Source: a bacterium (GTDB taxonomy: Bacteria > Verrucomicrobiota > Verrucomicrobiia > Verrucomicrobiales > Akkermansiaceae). From it: a stretch of 64,000 nt of DNA. How positions within the stretch are numbered: the first letter of the stretch is position 1; every line of letters begins with the position of its first letter. Both the position numbers and the translations under genes were made by a program. The notes beneath the pieces are model-generated. The model was not told where the DNA came from. It saw only the letters and a list, made by a program, of their open reading frames with translations, and did not search any database. Below, in pieces: positions 2,674 through 9,217 of this stretch. Location of the stretch: positions 1-64,000 of the forward strand of contig JAAEZT010000018.1 of assembly GCA_018222765.1 (NCBI GenBank). The letters run 5' to 3'.

Positions 2674-4437
2674 CTACATCCGCTCGGGGACGTCAATGGC
2701 AAGGAGGTTCAGGCCCTCACGCAAGACCCGTGAAGTCAGATCGCAAATAACGAGACGGCTCTCGCGAGTCTGCCCTTCCGACTTGAGAACGGGACAGGCT
2801 TCGAAAAAGGAATGAAAAGCTCGCGCGATTTCCAGCAAGTAGGTTGCGAGGAGATTCGGGCGATAGTCATCGAGAACCAACCTTACCTGATCGCCATAGC
2901 GGGAAAGCATCCGCACGAGATGAATTTCGGCAGGCTCGGTAAGGGCAAGATTGTCGGCGGACAAATTCTCCGCGACTCCTTCTTCGAGCTTCCGGAAGAT
3001 CGAACGACTCCGCACATAGCTGTAAAAAAGATAGGGCGCGGTATCTCCTTCGAGCGCGACCATTTTCTCCAAATCAAACACGTAGTCCGACATGCGATGG
3101 TGCGAGAGTTCGGTGAACTTCACCGAATTCACTCCAATAAGCTCGGCCAGAGCAGCCTTCTCTTCATCGCTATCAAGACGACTCTTACCATCGACCACGG
3201 CACGAGCCGCTTTCACCGCATCATTGAGGACATCATTCAGCTGGGGCAAATCCCCGGCCCGTGTTTTAAGTGGTTTGCCGTCTTTACCGAGAATGGTTCC
3301 AAAAGCCACGTGCACCAGATTCACCTGGTCGAAACCAAGACGCGTCGAGACATCGAAAAGCTGCTCGAAGTGCCCGCCCTGACGGAAATCAACGACATAC
3401 CAAATCTGATCGGCCTGCCATTCATTGACTCGAAAATCAACGGTGGCAATGTCGGTGGTAGCGTAATTGAAGGCCCCATCAGATTTTTGAATCATCATGG
3501 GATAATCCTGCCACTCGCCATCGCGATTGATCTTAAACGGATCAGCCTTGGGTTTCACCGTTTCACTGGAGAAGACGCACACTGCTCCGTCACTTTCACG
3601 GGCCAGATCGGCCGCTTTCAATTTTTCTACCAAGGGCGCAAGAGCGTTATTGTAGGCACTTTCGCCCATCCAGTGATCAAAGGTGACACCAAGGCGATCA
3701 TACATTGCATCGAGTCCCTTTCGGGAAAGCTCGAGACAACGGGTCCAGATCGCGCTGTTCTCGGGATCGCCTTGCTGAAGCTTCACCAACTCGGAACGGC
3801 ATTCATCTTTGATCGCCTCGTCTTCCTTCGAGGCATCGGAAGCCGAGCGATACAGTCGCAGCAATTCCTGCAACGGAGCTTCTTCGAGTTGGGCTTCATC
3901 AACACCCTTTTTCCAGGCCCAGGTGACCATGCCAAATTGCGTTCCCCAGTCACCGATATGGTTATCCTTGATTACTTTGTGACCGAGAGCGGTCGAGATT
4001 CGTGAAAGGCATTCCCCGATGATGGTCGAGCGAATATGCCCGATATGCATTGGCTTCGCGACGTTGGGTGCGGAGAAATCCAGAACGATCGTTTGCGGGG
4101 CTTCCACCTGCTGAATCAGAAGGTCATCAGACTCCCACTGCGCTTTTGCCAAATCAGCCCAAGCTTCAGGTTTTAAGGTGAAATTTAAAAAACCAGGCCC
4201 GGCGATGGACACCTCACAAAGATCATCGACGGAAAGCTCTCCGGTAATCTCCTCAGCCAGCGCGCGGGGGTTCTTGCCAACGGCCTTCGCCAGGACCATC
4301 GCGGCATTGCTTTGAAAATCCCCGAAACGAAGATCGGCAGCTGTAGCGACCTGAATCCGCGATGAATCGGGAGTCTCGACTCCAAGCGCTTCGAGCGCAG
4401 CCAGAAGTTTACCACTGAGAAGTTTGGGAATGGTCAT
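2674..4437 (-). CDS. argS: Arginyl-tRNA synthetase
   Basis: Class I aminoacyl-tRNA synthetase that charges tRNA-Arg in the cytosol. The 587-aa length is normal. An N-terminal additional domain (about residues 1-110) precedes the Rossmann catalytic core with NVAKPMHIGHIRS, the HIGH signature. The KMSKS position reads ILGKDGKPLKTRAGD, the degenerate form typical of ArgS. The C-terminal DALR anticodon-binding helices end in PERM. The ATG at 4437 follows ptsN by 14 bp, giving the order ptsN-argS-proB on the minus strand. No Shine-Dalgarno is visible before the start. Confidence 0.97.
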   Translation of the reverse strand: MTIPKLLSGKLLAALEALGVETPDSSRIQVATAADLRFGDFQSNAAMVLAKAVGKNPRALAEEITGELSVDDLCEVSIAGPGFLNFTLKPEAWADLAKAQWESDDLLIQQVEAPQTIVLDFSAPNVAKPMHIGHIRSTIIGECLSRISTALGHKVIKDNHIGDWGTQFGMVTWAWKKGVDEAQLEEAPLQELLRLYRSASDASKEDEAIKDECRSELVKLQQGDPENSAIWTRCLELSRKGLDAMYDRLGVTFDHWMGESAYNNALAPLVEKLKAADLARESDGAVCVFSSETVKPKADPFKINRDGEWQDYPMMIQKSDGAFNYATTDIATVDFRVNEWQADQIWYVVDFRQGGHFEQLFDVSTRLGFDQVNLVHVAFGTILGKDGKPLKTRAGDLPQLNDVLNDAVKAARAVVDGKSRLDSDEEKAALAELIGVNSVKFTELSHHRMSDYVFDLEKMVALEGDTAPYLFYSYVRSRSIFRKLEEGVAENLSADNLALTEPAEIHLVRMLSRYGDQVRLVLDDYRPNLLATYLLEIARAFHSFFEACPVLKSEGQTRESRLVICDLTSRVLREGLNLLAIDVPERM

Positions 4438-5741: not shown

Positions 5742-5767
5742 GACTTTGTGAAAAATTTCACAAAGTC
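5742..5767. promoter_or_regulatory. Perfect 12-bp inverted repeat with a CRP/FNR-like core upstream of nuoD
   Basis: Left arm GACTTTGTGAAA (5742-5753), two A, right arm TTTCACAAAGTC (5756-5767); every base pairs. The core TGTGA-N6-TCACA (5747-5762) matches the binding consensus of the CRP branch of the CRP/FNR family. It ends 44 bp before the nuoD ATG and directly abuts a candidate -35 box. It has no following U-run and lies about 180 bp from the previous gene, so an operator is more likely than a terminator. Which regulator binds is unknown; none is encoded in the window. Confidence 0.65.
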
Positions 5768-5768
5768 C

Positions 5769-5797
5769 TTGCGAGCCCCGACTAACCAGACTTTTAT
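5769..5797 (+). promoter_or_regulatory. Candidate promoter of nuoDEF
   Basis: TTGCGA (5769-5774), 17 bp, then TTTTAT (5792-5797), with an overlapping TATAAG at 5795. A start near 5805 would leave only about 7 nt of leader before the ATG at 5812, so the message would be nearly leaderless. The adjoining palindrome centre would sit near -50. This is inferred from motif spacing only. Confidence 0.3.
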
Positions 5798-5811
5798 AAG
5801 GCAGGCGCACT

Positions 5812-7068
5812 ATGAGCGAAACGACGACTTACGAGGCCCCCGACGCTGCCGCAGTAGCGGCGAAAGCTGTGAACGATTATCAGGCCGAAACCGACGATGT
5901 GCTCGGTGAAAAAATGGTGCTGAACATGGGACCATCCCACCCAGCCACCCACGGCGTCTTGCGCCTCGTTCTCGAGCTGGATGGAGAAATCATTGAGAAA
6001 GCCGAGCCCCACGTCGGCTACCTACATCGTGGTGACGAGAAGATCGCGGAGAACATGCACTACAACCAGTTTGTGCCCTACACCGATCGTCTTGATTACC
6101 TCGCACCGCTTGCGAACAACGTAGCCTACGCCTGCGCCGTGGAGAAACTCATGGGCTGGGAACTCCCGCCCCGTGGACAAGCCCTGCGCGTCCTTTGCTG
6201 CGAATTGGCCCGCATTTCCTCCCACATGCTGGGAGTGGGCGTTTGCGCCATGGACGTCGGCGCGATGACCGTCTTCCTCTACACCTTCGCCGAGCGCGAA
6301 AAAATCTACAACTTCTGTGAGAAAATCACCGGAGCGCGATTCACCACTTCCTACACCCGCATCGGCGGACAAATCCGCGACTTCCCCGAAGGACTCGATC
6401 AGGAAATCCTCAAATTCCTCGACGAATGCGAGGCGACGGTGGGCGAAATTTCCGGACTTCTCGACAAGAACAAGATCTACCTCGAGCGCATGTGTGATGT
6501 CGGAGTGATCAGCAAGGAAGACGCTATCAGCTACGGAATGACCGGGCCAAACCTGCGCGCCTGTGGCGTCGACCGTGACCTTCGCCGGGACAGCCCGTAT
6601 CTCGGTTACGAGAAATACGAGTTCGATGTCCCCATTGCGGAAAACGGTGATTGCTACGATCGCTATCTCGTCCGGATGGAAGAAATCCGCCAATCCATCA
6701 AAATCATCCGTCAGGTGATCGAAACCATGCCCGAAGGCGACATCAACGTCGTCAATTCCAAGTCGACTCTCCCCGAGAAAGAGCGCGTCATGATGAGCAT
6801 GGAGGAACTCATCCACCACTTCATCGTGGCCACCCAGGGCATCGAAGCCCCCGAGGGTGAGGTTTACTTTGCCGCCGAGAACCCCAAGGGGGAACTTGGC
6901 TTCTACATCAATTCCAAGGGCGGCGGCGTGCCGTATCGTCTGAAGATCCGCGCCCCGTCCTTCGTCAATCTCGGCATCTGCGCCGACCTCCTTAAAGGCC
7001 ACATGGTCTCCGATATTCCGGCCATCCTCGGCTCTCTCGACTTTGTCATGGGAGAGTGCGACCGTTAA
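5812..7068 (+). CDS. nuoD: NADH-quinone oxidoreductase subunit D
   Basis: The 49-kDa-type subunit of respiratory complex I, in the peripheral arm next to the quinone site. The 418-aa product has the family hallmarks LNMGPSHPATHGVLRLVLELDG split across residues 37-58, the PHVGYLHRGDEKIAE block, YLAPLANNVAY and the C-terminal GHMVSDIPAILGSLDFVMGECDR region. About 30 extra N-terminal residues (Ala/Glu-rich) precede the core. A weak AAGG lies about 10 nt before the ATG. It is followed by nuoE and nuoF, but nuoA-C are not upstream and nuoG is not downstream, so complex I genes are split between loci here. Confidence 0.97.
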   Translation: MSETTTYEAPDAAAVAAKAVNDYQAETDDVLGEKMVLNMGPSHPATHGVLRLVLELDGEIIEKAEPHVGYLHRGDEKIAENMHYNQFVPYTDRLDYLAPLANNVAYACAVEKLMGWELPPRGQALRVLCCELARISSHMLGVGVCAMDVGAMTVFLYTFAEREKIYNFCEKITGARFTTSYTRIGGQIRDFPEGLDQEILKFLDECEATVGEISGLLDKNKIYLERMCDVGVISKEDAISYGMTGPNLRACGVDRDLRRDSPYLGYEKYEFDVPIAENGDCYDRYLVRMEEIRQSIKIIRQVIETMPEGDINVVNSKSTLPEKERVMMSMEELIHHFIVATQGIEAPEGEVYFAAENPKGELGFYINSKGGGVPYRLKIRAPSFVNLGICADLLKGHMVSDIPAILGSLDFVMGECDR

Positions 7069-7096
7069 TTGTTTTTCAACCGATTCTTTTTTCAAG

Positions 7097-7810
7097 GTGA
7101 GTTCCAATACTGAAGTTCCAGAAGTCCCCGCTGATCAAAACGCGAAGGACTCCACGCAGTCATGCCCTCCAGCCGACGGCACCAACACTCCTCTTCCAGG
7201 TGGAGGATCTTCGACCGCAGCTGGGTCTGAGGAGCGTGCCTTGTCGGTTCTGGAAAAGAACATCCATTCAGCACAGACCCCGGGCGAAAAATTCTTCCCG
7301 AGCTTTGCCGTCACGGAGGGTCTCGAAGAAAAGGCGAACGAACGTATCGCGCAGTATCCAGACGATCAAAAACGCTCCGCCGTCCTTCCCCTTCTTCACG
7401 AAGTTCAACATCGTTTCGGATACATCAGCCCCGAATCGATCGACTGGGTCGCGGGCAAGCTCGATATCGAACCAATCAAGGTCGTCGAGGTCGTCACGTT
7501 CTACCCGGGCTTCCGCCAAAAAGCTCCGGGCAAACTCCACATCCGCGTTTGCCGCACTCTTTCTTGCGCCATGGGAGGCTCCTATGAACTCATGGACAAA
7601 CTCTGCCAGATCGCCCAAATCGATCGCAGTGCCTCCGACACGCACAAGGATCCCATCGCGATTTCCCCTTGCGGAAATTTCTCCGTGGAGTTTGCCGAGT
7701 GCCTCGCTTCCTGCGGCACCGCCCCGGTCTGCCTCGTCAACGATGACTTCCATGAGGGTGTCACCTGCGACAAGGCCGAGGCGCTCCTCAACAGCTATCA
7801 AAACGCCTAA
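7097..7810 (+). CDS. nuoE: NADH-quinone oxidoreductase subunit E (24 kDa)
   Basis: Thioredoxin-fold [2Fe-2S] subunit of the NADH-oxidising module of complex I. The cluster ligands have the standard spacing Cys152-x4-Cys157 (VCRTLSC) and Cys202-x3-Cys206 (ECLASC). The helical part starts around residue 65 (FPSFAVTEGL) and contains LLHEVQHRFGYIS. The first 60 residues are a Ser/Pro/Ala-rich extension that most NuoE lack. The frame is open from an ATG at 7043 inside nuoD; I prefer the GTG at 7097, giving 237 aa, because it starts after the nuoD stop, but the true start could also be a later codon near the core. Start is uncertain, family is certain. Confidence 0.92.
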   Translation: MSSNTEVPEVPADQNAKDSTQSCPPADGTNTPLPGGGSSTAAGSEERALSVLEKNIHSAQTPGEKFFPSFAVTEGLEEKANERIAQYPDDQKRSAVLPLLHEVQHRFGYISPESIDWVAGKLDIEPIKVVEVVTFYPGFRQKAPGKLHIRVCRTLSCAMGGSYELMDKLCQIAQIDRSASDTHKDPIAISPCGNFSVEFAECLASCGTAPVCLVNDDFHEGVTCDKAEALLNSYQNA

Positions 7811-7822
7811 TTGCTAATTCCA

Positions 7823-9217
7823 ATGAGCATTACCTACAAGCCAGGCAAAAAACCTCATCCCAACGAGCACCGGCTCATCTTCAAAAACGTCGATCGCCGT
7901 GGCTGGAACCCTTCCATCAAACGTTACCTCAAAGAAGACGGATACGACACGCTTAAAAAAGCTCTCGAGATGGAGCCCAAAGATGTCATCAACGAGGTGA
8001 AAACTTCCGGCCTTCGTGGTCGCGGAGGCGCGGGATTCCCAACCGGTATCAAGTGGGGTTTCATCCCACCCAACAACACCAAGCCGGTCTACCTCATCTG
8101 CAACTGCGACGAATCCGAACCCGGCACATTCAAAGATCGCTACATCGTTCACCAAGACCCGCACCAGTTGATCGAAGGCATGGTCATCTCCGCGCACGCC
8201 GTCGGTGCGCACACCGCTTACATTTATATTCGCGAAGAATTCCCCGAAGCAGCCATCACCCTCGAAAAAGCGATCCAAGAAGCCAAAGATAACAACTTCC
8301 TCGGCAAAAACATCCTTGGATCCGGGTTCGATCTCGAAATCTACGTTCACCGTGGCGCCGCGGCCTACATTTGCGGTGAAGAAACCGGCCTTATCGAGTC
8401 ACTCGAAGGCAAACGCCCCTACCCGAGAATCAAGCCACCGTATTTCCCGGCCGCCATCGGTCTCTACATGGCACCGACCATCGTCAACAATGTCGAGTCC
8501 CTCTGCCACGTCGTGCATATCATGCGAATGGGCGGCGAGGAATACGTCAAACTTGGCACACCACGCAACTCGGGCACCCGCATCCTCTGCGTATCCGGCG
8601 ACGTCAAGGAACCCGGATATTTTGAAGTCGAAGTCGGCAAGATCACCTTCCGCGAACTCCTCTACGATATGTGTGGCGGACCCAAAGACGGGCGCGAATT
8701 CAAAGCAGTCATTCCTGGTGGCTCCTCTTCCAAGATTCTTCGCTGCAACGAAACTTTCAAAATCGGACGTGGCGACGATGCCAAGGACATGGACTTCTGG
8801 GACATTCCACTCGATTTCGACACCCTCGCGGCAGCCGGTTCAATGGCTGGCTCCGGTGGCGTGATTGTCATGGACGACTCACGACGCATGTCCTGGGTTC
8901 TCAACAACATCACCCACTTCTACGCCCACGAATCCTGCGGACAATGTACGCCATGTCGCGAAGGCTCTACTTGGATGAAGAAAGTTTCCGATCGTATCGA
9001 AGACGGCACTGCCACCCCGACCGACGTCGATACGCTCGAGCAAATTGCCTACCAGATCGACGGCAAGACTGTTTGCGCCTTTGGAGAAGCCTCCGCCTGG
9101 CCGGTCGAAGCGATGATCGACAAATTCCGTGACGAACTCATTGGGGAAACCTCTGAAGATAACGATTTCAAATCGAAGGAAAGGATCGAGCAGGAGAAAT
9201 TCCTCTCCAGTGTCTAA
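7823..9217 (+). CDS. nuoF: NADH-quinone oxidoreductase subunit F (51 kDa)
   Basis: FMN- and NADH-binding subunit of complex I that takes the hydride from NADH. The 464-aa product has the glycine-rich GLRGRGGAGFPTGIKW motif near residue 58, CNCDESEPGTFKDR (FMN site), the GEETGLIESLEGKRPYPR block, and the N3 [4Fe-4S] ligands in ESCGQCTPCREGSTW plus a later Cys in KTVCAFGE. I chose the ATG at 7823 over the in-frame TTG at 7811 immediately after the nuoE stop. The downstream gene begins right after its stop codon, where nuoG would be expected. Confidence 0.96.
   Translation: MSITYKPGKKPHPNEHRLIFKNVDRRGWNPSIKRYLKEDGYDTLKKALEMEPKDVINEVKTSGLRGRGGAGFPTGIKWGFIPPNNTKPVYLICNCDESEPGTFKDRYIVHQDPHQLIEGMVISAHAVGAHTAYIYIREEFPEAAITLEKAIQEAKDNNFLGKNILGSGFDLEIYVHRGAAAYICGEETGLIESLEGKRPYPRIKPPYFPAAIGLYMAPTIVNNVESLCHVVHIMRMGGEEYVKLGTPRNSGTRILCVSGDVKEPGYFEVEVGKITFRELLYDMCGGPKDGREFKAVIPGGSSSKILRCNETFKIGRGDDAKDMDFWDIPLDFDTLAAAGSMAGSGGVIVMDDSRRMSWVLNNITHFYAHESCGQCTPCREGSTWMKKVSDRIEDGTATPTDVDTLEQIAYQIDGKTVCAFGEASAWPVEAMIDKFRDELIGETSEDNDFKSKERIEQEKFLSSV

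Follow-up and report, generated by a model that had tools for sequence, protein, structure and literature searches.

The general operator of the redox-sensing repressor Rex has been given as TTGTGAANNNNTTCACAA (PMC5317091), and the consensus of the Rex site in Staphylococcus aureus as TTGTGAAW4TTCACAA (PMC2883068). According to the latter paper, binding of this motif by the Rex proteins studied is strengthened by NAD+ and weakened by NADH. A close comparison for the present locus is Streptomyces avermitilis, in which respiratory operons, nuo and atp among them, are reported to be repressed by Rex through this motif, with sites at nuo and atp that cover the -35 region (PMC5355995). Our literature search returned no Rex regulon described in Verrucomicrobiota, a mention in the comparative study of Ravcheev 2012 being possible, and no Rex regulon match for Planctomycetes.

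The locus described here lies in a window of 64,000 nucleotides (the whole stretch of DNA that was analysed) from a genome of the Akkermansiaceae (4.33 Mb, 87 contigs, 97.8% complete). Before the complex I genes nuoDEF it carries the perfect palindrome GACTTTGTGAAAAATTTCACAAAGTC. The first-pass annotation had described 12-base arms pairing completely around AA, a central TGTGA-N6-TCACA and a position adjoining the candidate -35 box of nuoDEF, and these three features were all recovered from the sequence (Table 1). When the window was searched for arms of 12 bases with a loop of 0-6 bases, this was the sole perfect palindrome, and when the window was simulated 40 times with a first-order Markov model, such a palindrome appeared in 1 simulation. 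TGTGA-N6-TCACA likewise has a single exact occurrence in the window. When 2 mismatches were tolerated, 19 occurrences were observed and 19.9 were expected, and therefore only the exact match is informative. The central 18-mer agrees with TTGTGAANNNNTTCACAA at 14 of its 14 fixed positions and fits the S. aureus consensus with 0 mismatches, W4 included.

Table 1. Features of the probable nuoDEF operator and promoter region, in positions of the window
Feature	Position	Strand	Remarks
Perfect 26-bp palindrome	5742-5767	.	GACTTTGTGAAA-AA-TTTCACAAAGTC, 12-base arms around AA
TGTGA-N6-TCACA core	5747-5762		Centre of the palindrome
Predicted Rex operator, 18-mer	5746-5763	.	TTGTGAAAAATTTCACAA
Candidate -35 box	5769-5774	+	TTGCGA, starts 5 bases past the 18-mer
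Candidate -10 region	5792-5799	+	TTTTATAA; TTTTAT, 17-bp spacing; predicted from the sequence and an alignment of 53 distinct nuoD upstream regions
nuoD, 49-kDa complex I subunit	5812-7068	+	First gene past the operator; PF00346, E 7e-116
nuoE	7043-7810	+	Listed open frame, with the real start probably more internal; PF01257, E 1.4e-38
nuoF	7811-9217	+	Open frame as listed; PF01512, E 1.4e-49; PF10589, E 1.1e-30

These observations, together with the genomic data presented below, indicate that the palindrome is very probably an operator of Rex, through which nuoDEF would be repressed. The binding, the direction of control and the response to NADH are here carried over from other bacteria.

The genome contains one rex gene (PF06971, E 5e-18). 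Its product scored 238.5 bits against the equivalog model NF003992 (cut-off 226) and exceeded the cut-off in six of the nine NCBIfam Rex models that it matched. Both the nucleotide-binding fold (PF02629) and the winged helix (PF06971) were found above cut-off. All eight solved chains matching this protein are Rex; seven are so named, and the eighth, 2dt5, titled AT-rich DNA-binding protein, is T-Rex (PMC8376106). The same source describes base contacts by Arg50, Arg51 and Arg62 in S. agalactiae Rex, and the equivalent residues, read by eye from the alignment, are arginine at all three positions. Among 30 Rex sequences of the family (from 48 matched), also inspected by eye, the first and third of these positions were arginine in 30/30, while the second was lysine in 20 and arginine in the other 10. 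In the 11 kb around rex every candidate site had at least 4 mismatches, and thus autoregulation was not seen. Autoregulation of rex is frequent, not universal. A distant member of the phylum (G160), the Rex of which is 35% identical, has a single exact 18-mer at 4001, just before rex; this suggests that rex is autoregulated in that genome, though not in the present one.

TGTGA-N6-TCACA is the core of the enteric CRP site, and the first-pass annotation had assigned the palindrome to a CRP/FNR-family regulator of nuoDEF. The core is present in the Rex operator TTGTGAANNNNTTCACAA too, so that it does not discriminate between the two. Loose matches to the CRP-type helix-turn-helix (HTH; PF13545, E 0.001), mostly partial, were obtained in 44 of 60 genomes of the family, as would suit a CRP-like binder. 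However, the genome itself gave 0 matches to PF13545 at E 0.001 in a search that was positive in 14/14 control genomes, and 0 to the cNMP-binding domain PF00027 at the same threshold (controls positive in 10/14). A CRP gene could therefore be present only in the approximately 2% of the genome that is missing. Above cut-off, PF13545 was found in 7 of the 48 family genomes with sites versus 5 of the 12 without, so the sites do not follow the CRP-type HTH, and the conserved stretch extends beyond the CRP core to TTGTGAA...TTCACAA. Control of nuoDEF by CRP/FNR was consequently rejected, and we regard it as very unlikely. The annotation had itself named the lack of such a protein as evidence against its regulator. 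Its broader proposal, a redox-linked operator over a complex I module, is retained on the sequence evidence with Rex in the place of CRP/FNR.

A scan of the whole genome for the same site, as the annotation had advised, yielded further copies before other respiratory genes. Six exact matches to TTGTGAANNNNTTCACAA were found, while approximately 0.01 would be expected in 4.33 Mb from composition, with the G+C content of the window applied to the whole genome. One further site carries one mismatch, and all seven precede respiratory or prenyl-chain genes. The targets are nuoD, nuoB (followed by nuoC), nuoG (co-oriented with nuoH and nuoJ), a probable alternative complex III with two of the sites, the gene for the ATP synthase a-subunit and a polyprenyl synthase gene. 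As further major genes of respiration also carry this site upstream, much of the chain is probably adjusted by a single sensor. The two sites at the probable alternative complex III are 25 bases apart and lie before a multihaem cytochrome gene (actA-like), which is followed by a gene for a 1139-aa protein with TIGR04519 (TAT-variant molybdopterin-oxidoreductase) and Fer4 domains and by an NrfD-family gene. The assignment is based on this domain content and gene order; as no dedicated alternative complex III model matched above cut-off, the locus could encode a related quinone-reductase complex. For the polyprenyl synthase no specific NCBIfam cut-off was passed. The sites of nuoG, nuoB and the polyprenyl synthase fall just inside the mechanically listed open frames (projected distances -18 to -28), and for this reason a later start codon was taken for these genes. 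nuoA, which forms a separate complex I locus, has no operator (best match with 3 mismatches), and therefore the sites do not extend to the whole of complex I.

With up to 2 mismatches allowed, 26 places were found in the genome and 4 in the reversed control. Nineteen of the 26 carry 2 mismatches. Fourteen of these were dropped from the regulon because they are within mechanically listed open frames of at least 290 aa; the other five are in short open frames or in none, and may or may not be members.

The annotation had named absence of the palindrome upstream of nuoD in close relatives as evidence against its reading. To follow the operator through relatives, the best 80 of 533 NuoD relatives from named genomes were used, all Verrucomicrobiota by name except one labelled Porticoccaceae. 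The exact 18-mer was present within 300 bases upstream of nuoD (less at contig ends) in 55/80, and with one mismatch in 2/80, a result in favour of the site. The cultured species Rubritalea profundi, Roseibacillus persicicus and Luteolibacter pohnpeiensis are among those with the exact 18-mer there. Control stretches of the same length inside nuoD gave no match at up to 2 mismatches in 80/80. In the 23 relatives lacking a site near nuoD, a search that reached as far as 4 kb upstream, or less where the locus was short, detected no displaced site, and several of them keep a half-preserved operator before the same -35 box. The contig labelled Porticoccaceae (NYXU01000077.1) encodes a NuoD 90% identical to the one studied here and carries the same kind of operator; it probably belongs to Verrucomicrobiota and was mislabelled or mis-binned. 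In eight Rex-bearing relatives without a nuoD operator, the same -35 box is preceded by A-rich stretches that resemble one another and in most cases end in GATAA or GACAA; these could be a product of decay or the site of another regulator.

The distribution of the sites was then compared with that of Rex. Among the 60 family genomes, exact sites were found in 48 and the Rex HTH above cut-off in 47. Both occurred together in 47, sites only in 1, Rex only in 0 and neither in 12 (Fisher p ~1e-11). The genome with sites only is 72% complete, and one genome with a Rex match below cut-off was scored as lacking Rex. The reversed pattern gave 0 matches in all 60. A perfect inverted repeat is able to form a hairpin, and the palindrome could in principle be a chance or structural feature, such as a terminator, with no regulator involved. 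No T-run was seen by eye after it, however, and neither the presence of the 18-mer in 48/60 genomes against 0/60 for the reversed control nor its retention before nuoD, with clean in-gene controls, would be expected of such a feature. This explanation is thus extremely improbable, and the reading as a Rex operator is followed below.

Fifty of the 80 named genomes were searched. A nuoD site (up to 1 mismatch) accompanied Rex in 25 and occurred without Rex in 3; Rex without a nuoD site was found in 13 and neither in 9 (p 0.02). The association of the nuoD site itself with Rex is thus loose among these genomes. The 13 genomes with Rex and no nuoD site have 4-8 sites elsewhere at up to 1 mismatch. 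The nine with neither have 0 exact sites genome-wide, although in two of them one or two sites with a single mismatch were found. When the reversed control was run on 25 named genomes, 2 of them gave one match each. Of the three genomes in which a nuoD site was found and Rex was not, two have 3 and 5 exact sites, and their assemblies may be incomplete; in the third the nuoD site, with one mismatch, is the only one, as would fit if Rex had been lost recently. One genus with genomes of 2.2-3.3 Mb (98-100% complete) lacked both Rex and sites in 14/14 sampled members.

The link between Rex and exact sites is not general in the phylum. In a sample of 115 genomes, the Rex HTH was above cut-off in 64 and any exact site was found in 8, namely the present genome (6 sites), a genome of another family in the same order (G170, 8 listed) and six others with one each. 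Two genomes with one exact site each gave no Rex match. In many distant classes each genome has between one and three matches to the Rex-type HTH, and exact 18-mers are almost absent; the operators of these Rex-bearing classes probably differ.

The sites of six further family genomes were assigned to genes when the projected start was -60 to +400 from the site centre. All 34 fetched sites (35 were listed, one at a contig end being omitted) precede energy or prenyl-chain targets: nuoD (6), nuoB (5), nuoG (5), atpB (6), the actA-like cytochrome (7, in 6 genomes), polyprenyl synthase (3) and an NDH-2-like gene (2). The last name is based on a Pyr_redox_2 match with NDH2_C below cut-off, and only a type II NADH dehydrogenase-like protein is meant. 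NADH-linked energy metabolism is thus the common feature of the targets, in the present genome (7/7) as in these six relatives (34/34). In G170, 7 distinct sites stand before nuoD, nuoB, nuoF, nuoG, nuoH, the actA-like gene and atpB; the eighth place listed repeats one locus, which is present on two contig ends that overlap, and nuoG, which lies beyond the distance limit, was assigned separately.

The position of the operator relative to the promoter appears to be of two kinds. At the exact nuoD-linked sites of the relatives, the next TTG begins 5 bases past the 18-mer in 54/55 and 6 bases past it in 1/55, and by eye a similar box follows most nuoB, nuoG and atpB sites (TTTACG at the nuoG site of the present genome). 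At actA, the TTGTGA of the operator is itself a plausible -35 box with TAAAAT 17 bases downstream, so this operator probably overlaps the core promoter, and at the polyprenyl synthase gene the operator is downstream of a TTGCGG-like box. As the operator is above the -35 box at nuoD but at actA and polyprenyl synthase probably lies in the core promoter, the mode of action of Rex may differ between these two promoter groups. Rex could even be an activator or a mixed regulator at nuo and atp, where the sites are wholly upstream of -35, and a repressor at the other two, a reading that the almost invariant spacing at nuoD, the similar boxes at nuoB, nuoG and atpB and the placement at actA and polyprenyl synthase would all accommodate. 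However, the Rex-bound respiratory operons described in PMC2883068 and PMC5355995 are repressed, and a dimer footprint of 27-29 bases, as given in PMC5355995, would still reach the -35 box. Activation at nuo and atp is therefore considered improbable, and repression is kept as the preferred reading.

The candidate promoter persists in relatives where the operator is absent. CCCTTGC was kept in 18 of the 23 relatives without a nuoD operator. In many relatives, even operator-less ones, CCTTGC followed after approximately 17-18 bases by GCTTATT is kept upstream of nuoD, and this promoter-like pattern may exemplify the housekeeping promoters of Verrucomicrobiota.

On repression by Rex, control of nuoDEF could proceed as follows. 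At a low NADH/NAD+ ratio a Rex dimer with NAD+ would bind the 18-mer, just upstream of the nuoDEF -35 box and against it, and would hinder RNA polymerase at this promoter. When NADH accumulates, it would displace NAD+, Rex would be released and nuoDEF could be made. Through the same operator at nuoB-C, nuoG-H, the F1Fo ATP synthase, the polyprenyl synthase and the probable alternative complex III, one sensor would raise or lower these genes jointly, with the separately encoded pieces of complex I included.

A wider interpretation is offered tentatively, as possible and still doubtful. A single NADH sensor would hold most of the chain together as one unit, both in the present family and in one or more neighbouring families; the unit would comprise the pieces of complex I, the probable alternative complex III, the ATP synthase, the polyprenyl synthase (perhaps for the quinone tail) and, in some species, the NDH-2-like enzyme. 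When nuo was broken up, the leading gene of most fragments would have carried or gained its own operator. Loss of Rex, for instance in the genus with genomes of 2.2-3.3 Mb, would have been accompanied by loss of the exact operators.

What seemed a puzzling CRP site is replaced by a defined redox switch, and a testable regulon for Verrucomicrobiota is obtained. The probable alternative complex III target and the separate complex I operators suggest how a cell could keep a scattered chain in step, and a natural experiment is provided by those members of the family in which Rex and the exact sites have been lost jointly.

Compared with the described systems, the site, the protein and the main target classes are those already known for the Rex regulon. 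The differences are the lineage, the probable alternative complex III and the polyprenyl synthase as targets, the separate operators for the complex I fragments and the lack of a rex site. The enteric CRP site has a like TGTGA-N6-TCACA core, whereas the flanks and the co-occurrence found here point to Rex. In S. aureus, whose stricter consensus the nuoD 18-mer fits, the sites described stand before anaerobically induced genes (PMC2883068). S. avermitilis agrees in several respects: the 18-bp motif is the same, complex I and ATP synthase are common targets (nuoA1-N1 and atpIBEFHAGDC in that species), and ndh2, controlled there by Rex (PMC5355995), has a counterpart in the type II NADH dehydrogenase-like target of two relatives. 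With respect to the targets named in that paper, which include one nuo operon, cydA1B1CD and rex-hem, complex I is split here and most of its loci have their own operator, rex is without a site, and the probable alternative complex III and the polyprenyl synthase are added. Finally, the nuo and atp sites cover the -35 region in S. avermitilis (PMC5355995), whereas in the present genome they are located upstream of it.
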